From a virus, in the IMG/VR virus record IMGVR_UViG_3300030116_003772, positions 937 to 35,529 of that record: a DNA stretch of 34,593 nt; one strand, given 5' to 3'. The notes under the pieces were generated by a model, which was not told the origin of the DNA, ran no database searches, and saw nothing but the letters and a program-made list of their open reading frames with translations. Positions within the stretch are counted from its first letter, which is position 1; every line of letters starts with the position of its first letter. A program made the translations under genes and the position numbers. Shown here piece by piece: positions 10,152 through 24,966 of the stretch.

Positions 10152-10264
10152 TTGAATGTAGAATATGTAAGTTGTTAGTTGCTACTTGTAAAGAAGAAAT
10201 GGCACAACCCGAAGATATGTGTTGGGAGTGTTACGCTAAGATACATGGAGGCGAAGAAGAATGA
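10148..10264 (+). CDS. Mini zinc-ribbon protein
   Basis: 38 residues, ATGA overlaps at both ends. CRIC (4-7), C14 and CWEC (25-28) could form one zinc site. Ends GGEEE*. Confidence 0.6.
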   Translation: MIECRICKLLVATCKEEMAQPEDMCWECYAKIHGGEEE

Positions 10265-10623
10265 TTGACACAGGCAAATACGAGGGACATGACCTTGCTA
10301 AAGGTAGGGTCGGTAGTGACTACAACATATACGACAGAAAAGGTAACATTATCTTTGATGTTGATGATGTGGGTAGTAACATGGCTACACTAAACTTGTT
10401 GGCAGACGCACCACTACTACTTGAGGAAGTCAAGAGATTGCGTGAGGAAAATAAGGAGTTAGAAGAGTTTCTAAATAAATCTCATGCTGCCAACAAGATA
10501 CGCCATGAGCAATTGGTTAGAGCGCAAAAGTGGGCTTACAAACAAGTTTGCCACAATGATTCAGCGATGATGGACTATGATGATTATGTATGGGGTGAAG
10601 AAGATGTGGATATATCTAACTGA
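10261..10623 (+). CDS. Unknown coiled-coil protein
   Basis: 120 residues. The N-terminal part is beta-rich with Gly and Asp (GSDYNIYDRKGNIIFDVDDVG). Residues 50-90 (LLLEEVKRLREENKELEEFL...) form a clear coiled coil. Several phage accessory proteins share this layout of a short N-terminal domain before a coiled coil. Function unknown. Confidence 0.65.
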   Translation: MIDTGKYEGHDLAKGRVGSDYNIYDRKGNIIFDVDDVGSNMATLNLLADAPLLLEEVKRLREENKELEEFLNKSHAANKIRHEQLVRAQKWAYKQVCHNDSAMMDYDDYVWGEEDVDISN

Positions 10624-23127: not shown

Positions 23128-24096
23128 ATGGCAGGATTTGGAGAAACAGTGGTAGCGCAAGCAGAAGAGAAGAAAGTACAGGCATCACCTAAGCCTCAAA
23201 AGGTTAAGGGTGGTAACGACCTATACGCTCATCTTCGTGCTGAAGAAAACAAGATGGGTGAGGAAAAGAAGATGACTCACCAATTCATAGGAATTGCAGG
23301 GCATGATGGTACTTGTAAATCGGGTATCGTAAAACATGCTTTTGAGAGTGATAAGTCTAAACCGGAAGATGCAGAATTACATGCGTTGGATTTCGACATG
23401 GGTGTTACAATGCTCAAGTCAGCATTGGGTGACAACCCTAACATCAAGTGTTGGAGTCCGTGGCAGATGGGTATTCAAGACCGTACTGCCTACGACTATC
23501 CGGGTACACATCAGCGTGTGATGGACATTATGAAGTTCATTCTACACAGGGTCACTAACGAAGGTGCGCCTGTTTGGGGTGTGCTTGTGAGTGGACTTGA
23601 CTCATGGTTGGAGGTATGTACTAACAACATGAGAATCATTGACTTAGGATTGGCTAAGGATGGTATTGAAGCGGCTGACAACCGTGGTGCAGGTGATGCA
23701 AAGCGTGTTGAGCGACAGTCTGATTGGGCTATTCGTAACACTCGTTTCCACCAATTGACAGCACTATCTCGCAATCTTGTGAGAGCAGGTGTGAGAGTCT
23801 TTTGGGAAACTCACCTACGCAATACTAACTTCTCATTCAGCAAAGATGCTGAAACATCTTGGCAACCGGAATGGGAAAAGAAAACTAACAACTACCTACC
23901 GACTATTATTTGGATGGAAACTGAAGAAGAATATGATGATGAGGGTGAGTTAGTAAAGACTGAATATAAGGCTCGCTTCCATAAGTGTAAGACAAACCCT
24001 GCGCTACAAGACCAAACTAAGACGGTCTTTGTAACGAAGCCTGATGGTGACTACCAATGGTTCGGTTTGCCTGAACTATATGATGGGAGTTTGTGA
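23128..24096 (+). CDS. RecA-fold ATPase (Sak4/AAA_24-like)
   Basis: 322 residues. After a 50-residue basic, flexible start, GHDGTCKS (58-65) is a Walker A of the GxxGxxKS type and 'VWGVLVSGLDSW' is the Walker B strand. 'ALDFDMG' and the 'WETHLRN' region follow the layout of small phage RecA-like ATPases (Sak4, AAA_24 type), which bind DNA or load recombinase. A RadA role is less likely because the N-terminal helix-hairpin-helix is absent and the protein is short of a full recombinase. Cys63 in the P-loop is unusual. Start ATG 23128 lies one base after the upstream stop. Confidence 0.8.
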   Translation: MAGFGETVVAQAEEKKVQASPKPQKVKGGNDLYAHLRAEENKMGEEKKMTHQFIGIAGHDGTCKSGIVKHAFESDKSKPEDAELHALDFDMGVTMLKSALGDNPNIKCWSPWQMGIQDRTAYDYPGTHQRVMDIMKFILHRVTNEGAPVWGVLVSGLDSWLEVCTNNMRIIDLGLAKDGIEAADNRGAGDAKRVERQSDWAIRNTRFHQLTALSRNLVRAGVRVFWETHLRNTNFSFSKDAETSWQPEWEKKTNNYLPTIIWMETEEEYDDEGELVKTEYKARFHKCKTNPALQDQTKTVFVTKPDGDYQWFGLPELYDGSL

Positions 24097-24108
24097 TACT
24101 CGACCATA

Positions 24109-24200
24109 CCGAGATAGGTTTTGAGCAGTAATAAGTGGTAAAGACGCTTCGGTACGCAAACGGGGAGAGTCGTTTCCTTCCCGCCACTTCCCTATCTCGT
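24109..24200 (+). ncRNA. Candidate structured RNA upstream of PCNA
   Basis: The 117-base gap 24097-24213 can fold as nested helices. Outer stem: 24110-24118 pairs perfectly with 24191-24199 (9 bp). Inner stem: 24133-24138 (AAGTGG) with 24184-24189 (CCACTT), 6 bp. Third stem: 24161-24167 (CGGGGAG) with 24177-24183 (CTTCCCG), 7 bp with one G-U. Base 24147-24152 is CTTCGG, a UUCG-type loop, but it lacks a stable stem. The structure ends four bases before the PCNA ribosome-binding site GAGGTGAT (24203-24210). It does not match tRNA. It could be a trans-acting RNA or a cis-acting leader element. Confidence 0.6.
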
Positions 24201-24213
24201 TTGAGGTGATATT

Positions 24214-24966
24214 ATGTGTAAAATAAATGTAGACAGAAAAGAATTACTTGCATTCCTTTCCTCCTTTGGGAAGGGTGTAACTGATGTGCGTATGAGTTGC
24301 GCTGGCAACCGCATTACAGTAGAGGTAGGATTTGCACACTACTACTTGCGTAAGCACATTACAGGTGTGAGTGTACTCGATGAGGGTTTCATTCACATTG
24401 CTATGCTTGAGAAGGCCATAGCCTTCTTGAAAGCGAGTAAGCAAGATGAGGTAACTCTTAGACAGACTACTCCTGTGAAGCCTCTTCATATTGAAGCAGG
24501 TGGTAACAAGTTGCAGATACCAAGCACTGATGATATTTTATCAGCAAGTAAAACTGTGGTTATCCGTAAGATGCTTGAGGCATGTTCGTCTGTAGGTTGG
24601 TCTGACTTTTCCGGTGCTACATTGAATGTTCACGCTAATGTGGAAACAAAGGATTTGATTTCATTAGCAGGTATGAAGGGGCTGGTTGCGGCTGATTCGC
24701 AATTCAAACTACGAATACACTGTGGGGAGAATGACTTGGGTATAGTGGCTGGCAAGGCTGCTACGGGTCGCCTGTTCACTACACTACCTGTTACTGATGC
24801 TGACGGCCCTAACGCTACAGTTGAAACATACTTTGGTGATTGGTTGCCTAAGTGTCTACAGTATCTCGATGAAGGAGATGCAAGGCTACACATGGGAGAT
24901 GGAGAGCCGGTTATCTTTGAGCAAGATAATACTTTACTCCTAATAATAAACGAGAGTGATGCTTGA
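24214..24966 (+). CDS. pcn: Sliding clamp (PCNA)
   Basis: 250 residues, the usual PCNA length. Two-domain repeat layout with 'LEKAIAFLKASKQDEVTL' around residue 70 (domain 1 helix and strand), an interdomain connector near 110-120 and a C-terminal strand 'PVIFEQDNTLLLIINE' in the position of the conserved PCNA end. The clamp tethers DNA polymerase and other factors to DNA. Sequence identity to cellular PCNA looks low; assignment rests on length, layout and position between RFC and PolB. GAGGTGAT three bases before ATG. Confidence 0.8.
   Translation: MCKINVDRKELLAFLSSFGKGVTDVRMSCAGNRITVEVGFAHYYLRKHITGVSVLDEGFIHIAMLEKAIAFLKASKQDEVTLRQTTPVKPLHIEAGGNKLQIPSTDDILSASKTVVIRKMLEACSSVGWSDFSGATLNVHANVETKDLISLAGMKGLVAADSQFKLRIHCGENDLGIVAGKAATGRLFTTLPVTDADGPNATVETYFGDWLPKCLQYLDEGDARLHMGDGEPVIFEQDNTLLLIINESDA

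Follow-up and report, generated by a model that had tools for sequence, protein, structure and literature searches.

What occupies the 117-base gap (24097-24213) between the stop codon of a RecA-like gene and the start of a sliding clamp gene is the question raised by this locus of an IMG/VR virus record, of which a stretch of 34,593 nucleotides (the window) was analysed. Gaps of more than 100 bases were defined by the gene chain of ORFs of at least 60 aa. The preliminary description had singled out this gap, and it was the only one of that size without a plausible ORF: its largest ORF (24 aa) was the smallest among these gaps, except for gap 2084-2201, where a 57-codon ORF overlaps the following gene, and the remaining gaps carry longer small ORFs. 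A coding function of the gap was ruled out, as no sizeable ORF was present and lengths varied among relatives; a conserved ORF, named beforehand as evidence against an RNA element, was not found.

Three stems had been claimed in the gap, and a check of the sequence placed all of them at exactly those positions and found them mutually compatible. The layout of the element is P1, a one-sided loop (UUU...RUAAU), P2, a variable part, P3, and P2' abutting P1'. The features of the locus are as follows, with the alignments (A3 and A4) and covariance models (R1 and R2) described below.

23128..24096, + strand: upstream gene, labelled RecA-like ATPase in the preliminary description
24110..24199, + strand: whole RNA element, P1 to P1' (R1, E=1.2e-12; R2, E=7.8e-6)
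24110..24118, + strand: P1 5' strand, CGAGATAGG, partner 24191-24199 with all bases matched; 7/9 P1 pairs double-changed in A3 and in A4
24119..24132, + strand: one-sided loop L1, UUUUGAGCAGUAAU; UUU...RUAAU near-invariant in A3 and A4
24120..24123, + strand: pseudoknot 5' strand, UUUG (position-constrained permutation test, 0/5000)
24133..24138, + strand: P2 5' strand, AAGTGG, partner 24184-24189; covariation in A3 and A4
24139..24156, + strand: variable region, in which relatives differ freely in sequence and length
24157..24160, + strand: pseudoknot 3' strand, CAAA, abutting P3 on its 5' side (position-constrained permutation test)
24161..24167, + strand: P3 5' strand, CGGGGAG, partner 24177-24183 with one G-U included; paired 97.5% in A4 and 67% in A3
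24177..24183, + strand: P3 3' strand, CTTCCCG (A4 pairing)
24184..24189, + strand: P2 3' strand, CCACTT (A4 pairing)
24191..24199, + strand: P1 3' strand, CCTATCTCG, last base 24199 (A4 pairing)
24203..24209, + strand: Shine-Dalgarno (SD) sequence of the clamp gene, GAGGTGA, read from the sequence; position shared with relatives
24214..24966, + strand: downstream gene, predicted sliding clamp (PCNA) (Foldseek)

The predicted product of 24214..24966 is supported as a sliding clamp by a Foldseek search with a low-confidence model, in which the top 50 matches listed were all sliding clamps (best E 2e-5). The earlier PCNA label was supported by this fold search alone; the RecA-like label was not confirmed, as the window protein had no sequence match in Pfam, PHROG, or PDB, and its AlphaFold model was poor. 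Pfam confirmed PolB and an RFC-like AAA ATPase in the window virus. The presence of PolB beside a sliding clamp, an RFC-like AAA ATPase, and a thermosome fits Magrovirales. We describe the virus as a marine archaeal virus resembling magroviruses, a tentative affiliation drawn from gene content. Magroviruses infect Poseidoniales (PMC12999244). Thermosome (Cpn60/TCP1) homology was spread over two overlapping frames (G000:C1:34753-36197; window about 33817 to past its end), as a frameshift or a split gene. Tandem small genes sharing a MIDTDKYEGH-like N-terminus, with otherwise different bodies, were seen in the window (10261-10623), in L155 (866-2859, reverse-complement coordinates), and in L154.

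Folding energy, proposed at the outset as a check, was better than that of shuffled controls, but only modestly (z = -1.48 for 24090-24215), and single-sequence energy was rejected as proof of an element, being weak evidence. For the exact element (24110-24199), the z value was -2.47 (5/200 shuffles), and the MFE model of the window sequence lacked P2. The decisive case for an element beyond chance is the comparison with relatives, not the energy. When the window and 18 relatives were scanned against Rfam 15, no family was retrieved at or above the gathering cut-off, and permissive scans yielded only chance matches, off the element or far under the cut-off; membership of an Rfam family was accordingly dropped. 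Neither ARAGORN nor Rfam found a tRNA in the window, in agreement with the earlier view that the gap does not fit one.

IMG/VR loci of relatives were gathered by using the clamp and the RecA-like protein as queries. A gap in this position, with a single shared architecture, was present in near relatives and also in many remote ones, whose RecA-like proteins were 36-55% identical. In other relatives, the RecA-like and clamp genes adjoin with neither gap nor element, and the element is therefore optional. In alignment A3 (27 sequences, MAFFT), 90 double-change cells were counted, compared with 34 in shuffles and 16-45 in slid-partner controls, which retain the relatedness of the sequences. RNAalifold, unaided on A3, proposed P1 and P2; the low pairing of P3 there coincided with MAFFT misalignment. 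Alignment A4 covers a tight subclass with the consensus GGUUUAUCCARUAAUAA-P2-AAAA-variable-GGAGAUAGU-P3-AUGAA-P2'-UUUCC. Of all A4 cells, 86.9% were paired, compared with 44-51% with the partner slid, and there were 116 double-change cells, where shuffles had 43 and slid controls 11-26. P2 (98% paired) and P3 showed many compensatory changes in A4. The outer P1 pairs past the inner four were about 40-47% paired, indicating that P1 length varies. At one P3 pair, G-U was the most frequent pair type, which suits RNA rather than DNA. The compensatory changes sought in homologous gaps were abundant in both alignments, and these comparisons argue that an evolutionarily conserved folded RNA in the RecA-like/clamp gap is real.

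A fourth helix, missed in the preliminary description, pairs the centre of loop L1 with the strand immediately 5' of P3 (UUUG/CAAA in the window); its partners in relatives were UUAGC/GCUAA, UUGAUGG/CCGUCAA, UUUGCA/UGCAAA, and CUGAC/GUCGG. An unconstrained pseudoknot search was not significant and no better than shuffles, and it was uninformative because any loop finds a partner among 50-80 free bases. In the position-fixed test, matched pairs had a score of 291, and permutations gave a mean of 222 and a maximum of 266; none of 5000 was as good, a result that overstates independence because the sequences are related. In A4, the pseudoknot was 99% paired with few compensatory changes. Compensation was seen from UCC/GGA to CCC/GGG (L156) and to UCA/UGG (L089). 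Near-invariant unpaired UUU, RUAAUAA, AAAA, AGU, and AUGAA surround the pseudoknotted junction in A4.

R1 matched the window element and also found L038 and L039, on which it had not been trained (E=2.5e-7). R2 was built from A4 alone, with the window virus left out, and its match in the window was exactly 24110-24199; because it recovered the window element with identical ends, this element and the A4 subclass form one family. Compensatory changes, recovery by an independent model, and zero Rfam matches together uphold the original proposal of a structured, apparently undescribed RNA. R1 applied to whole virus records located more copies elsewhere, tandem pairs among them (G016, G020, and G069). 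The pattern GGTTTDTCCARTAATAA brought further virus records, with about 36 matches of acceptable score from 80 stretches, and these matches make up the tight subclass of A4. At E of 1e-3 or less, R1 and R2 located about 70 places, spread over about 57 virus records; as some of these records are near duplicates, distinct elements are fewer than about 70. The covariance search on related viruses suggested beforehand thus recovered the family upstream of the clamp and beyond. PolB identities in element-bearing records fell to 40-41% in one group and 29-35% in others, most of the latter having PolB in two ORFs, indicating that the family spans deep divergence.

In most of G059, G061, G062, and G067-G072, PolB homology lay in two ORFs (about 560 and 280-310 aa), as a split family B polymerase. 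The first motif descriptors were discarded as too loose, since their matches were mostly chance; among the 29 contigs from the first pattern, those beyond this virus group had no model match. DNA matches of GenBank phages to a consensus-like element were no better than chance. Genome contigs scanned for PCNA and the thermosome yielded no Poseidoniales genome. R2 found no match in 148 genomes from the phylum of one methanogen genome, a sample that says nothing about Poseidoniales.

Wherever flanks were read, copies shared the sense of the following gene, and none was seen in the opposite orientation. The P1' end usually lay 1-12 bases 5' of the SD of the next gene; behind the G032 and G033 copies, no obvious SD or gene start followed directly. 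The genes behind the copies encode the sliding clamp (most), a UvrD-like helicase, AAA_24/RecA-like, zinc-finger, and kinase-like proteins (the last unmatched in Pfam and named by our own reading of the sequence), and other small proteins. The genes upstream of the copies included those for the RecA-like ATPase, a DUF932 protein, and, again by our own reading, an SSB-like protein whose tail is acidic and aromatic. The small zinc-finger protein behind the element starts M(L/K)KW. A small protein whose N-terminus is MKW-like, and which mostly has CxxC motifs, immediately followed the element in a number of virus groups (L078-L085, L112, L281, L284, L212, and L229), and it is a candidate regulator. 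tRNA genes lay 5' of the element in L275 (1675-1759) and L277 (1322-1405). A small hairpin with an AUCCC-like loop was present between the RecA-like stop codon and P1 in L003, L013, L019, L055, and L001 and was not evident in the window.

Between L001/L014 and the window (24110-24199), the element was swapped wholesale, and the flanking genes were nearly identical. For L001 and the window virus, the RecA-like proteins were 98% identical (95.8% at the nucleotide level), the clamp genes 94.5% (nucleotide), and the clamp proteins 97%, and the elements were 49% identical, compared with an average of 52% for unrelated pairs. The L001 element was 85% identical to that of L105, although the L105 RecA-like protein was only 37% identical, and L106, in another clade, had the same variant. 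Near-identical flanks, unrelated elements, and one variant in distant clades together indicate that replacement or exchange affects the element as a whole and leaves its structure intact. Why an RNA should be replaced wholesale while its flanking genes remain 95-98% identical is a puzzle.

A pseudoknotted leader RNA of roughly 90 nt that acts in cis on the following gene is probably encoded in the gap, as argued by its position, sense, tandem copies, and conserved unpaired core. We favour reading the element as a new class of leader RNA with a cis action, either like that of a riboswitch or as a protein operator. The preliminary description had offered either a viral ncRNA or a cis-acting switch of PCNA and PolB translation. 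Cis action fits better than a free ncRNA because the copies have the sense of the downstream gene, lie nearly always close to its SD, and precede several unrelated genes; limiting the target to PCNA and PolB was too narrow a view, because genes for helicase, RecA-like, zinc-finger, and kinase-like proteins likewise follow the element. The element is a conserved, covarying, structured domain in a 5' leader, as is expected of a riboswitch.

The leader RNA would remain in the mRNA and control the expression of the sliding clamp and, further downstream, PolB. P1, P2, and P3 would make one continuous 3' strand adjoining the ribosome-binding site, and the UUU...RUAAU loop would fold back and pair beside P3 to give a compact core. 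A protein or small molecule on the conserved unpaired core might alter P1 stability and thereby how readily ribosomes reach the SD beside it; the viral replication genes would in this way be coordinated. In predicted ensembles, the SD had a mean accessibility of 0.64 when the entire element was included and of 0.46 when only the 3' strand was, a difference that may simply reflect the tying up of a pyrimidine-rich strand. A specific anti-SD in P1' was rejected because it was no better than its own shuffles (p=0.54), and no specific SD-sequestering alternative fold emerged. We suggest, tentatively, that a ligand-responsive pseudoknotted RNA class, common to deeply diverged groups and exchanged as a cassette, runs an archaeal-virus replication regulon.

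The best explanation has two forms. In one, which is possible but which we hold with some doubt, translation of the replication regulon would be repressed or activated by an RNA-binding protein of the virus or its host, in the manner of T4 gp32, gp43, and RegA; the clamp, RecA-like ATPase, and helicase among the downstream genes are consistent with such an operator, as is the regulation of T4 gene 32 by its product, which binds a pseudoknot in the mRNA (PMC3014915). However, the element sequence is wholly replaceable between viruses with 98% RecA-like and 97% clamp protein identity, so that protein recognition would rest on the small conserved core. The other form, a doubtful one, is a metabolite riboswitch, in which the unpaired core at the pseudoknot would control the SD by binding a small molecule such as a nucleotide or signal. 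Aptamers typically show what is seen here, namely a near-invariant unpaired core, arrangement in tandem, and a single RNA serving unrelated genes, but the P1'-SD pairing, examined as a mutually exclusive expression platform, was not above its shuffled control, and the targets include no common metabolic gene.

Many copies lie between co-directional genes of a dense operon, with the RecA-like stop codon a short way upstream, as might be expected if the fold blocked or guided an RNase and set the relative mRNA amounts on either side; this is unlikely, since a plain barrier would need neither tandem copies nor so conserved an unpaired core. A small RNA excised from the mRNA and acting in trans would explain the discrete folded domain with clear ends and is improbable to a greater degree, given the fixed sense, the proximity to the SD of the next gene, and the copies before different genes. 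A self-cleaving ribozyme and a DNA-level element are both unlikely. The former, to which we give very little credence, would be HDV-like inside an extra outer stem, by analogy of strand order: pseudoknot, P2, variable hairpin, pseudoknot', P3, P2' corresponds to the HDV-like P1-P2-P3-P1'-P4-P2'. The HDV catalytic cytosine is located in the joining segment corresponding to the P3'-P2' junction; in the window, P3' meets P2' without joining nucleotides, and no Rfam ribozyme family or HDV-like covariance model matched. Least probable is an origin, recombination site, or mobile element, for which the multiple copies and the apparent exchange of one variant between distant viruses could speak, but G-U pairs are kept, sense is fixed relative to the genes, the pseudoknot is conserved, and no end repeats were seen.

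Structured cis-regulatory RNAs of archaeal viruses appear to be little described. A literature search, with subscription papers outside its scope, found none for magroviruses, and a 2023 magrovirus survey makes no mention of such an RNA (PMC10160649). With this family, an abundant uncultured group of marine viruses acquires a regulatory system open to testing, and its regulon can be sought by motif. HDV-like ribozymes have the identical strand order of pseudoknotted helices, whereas the present RNA has an extra enclosing stem and no Rfam match. Orphan riboswitch candidates of bacteria and archaea resemble it in the unpaired conserved core, pseudoknot, tandem arrangement, and pre-SD position; unlike them, the element was found here in viral records alone. 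The manA and wcaG RNA motifs of marine cyanophages are likewise structured RNAs from comparative analysis of marine viral sequences (PMC2864571), but belong to another virus group and other genes, and neither the window nor its relatives matched Rfam. The T4 gene 32 operator, with its gp43 and RegA control, is also a viral mRNA pseudoknot upstream of the ribosome-binding site of a replication gene, and a 2010 review considered that it may be the sole viral pseudoknot in translational autoregulation (PMC3014915). The present element differs from it in having four helices including an outer stem, many genes, and tandem copies, in archaeal-type tailed viruses.
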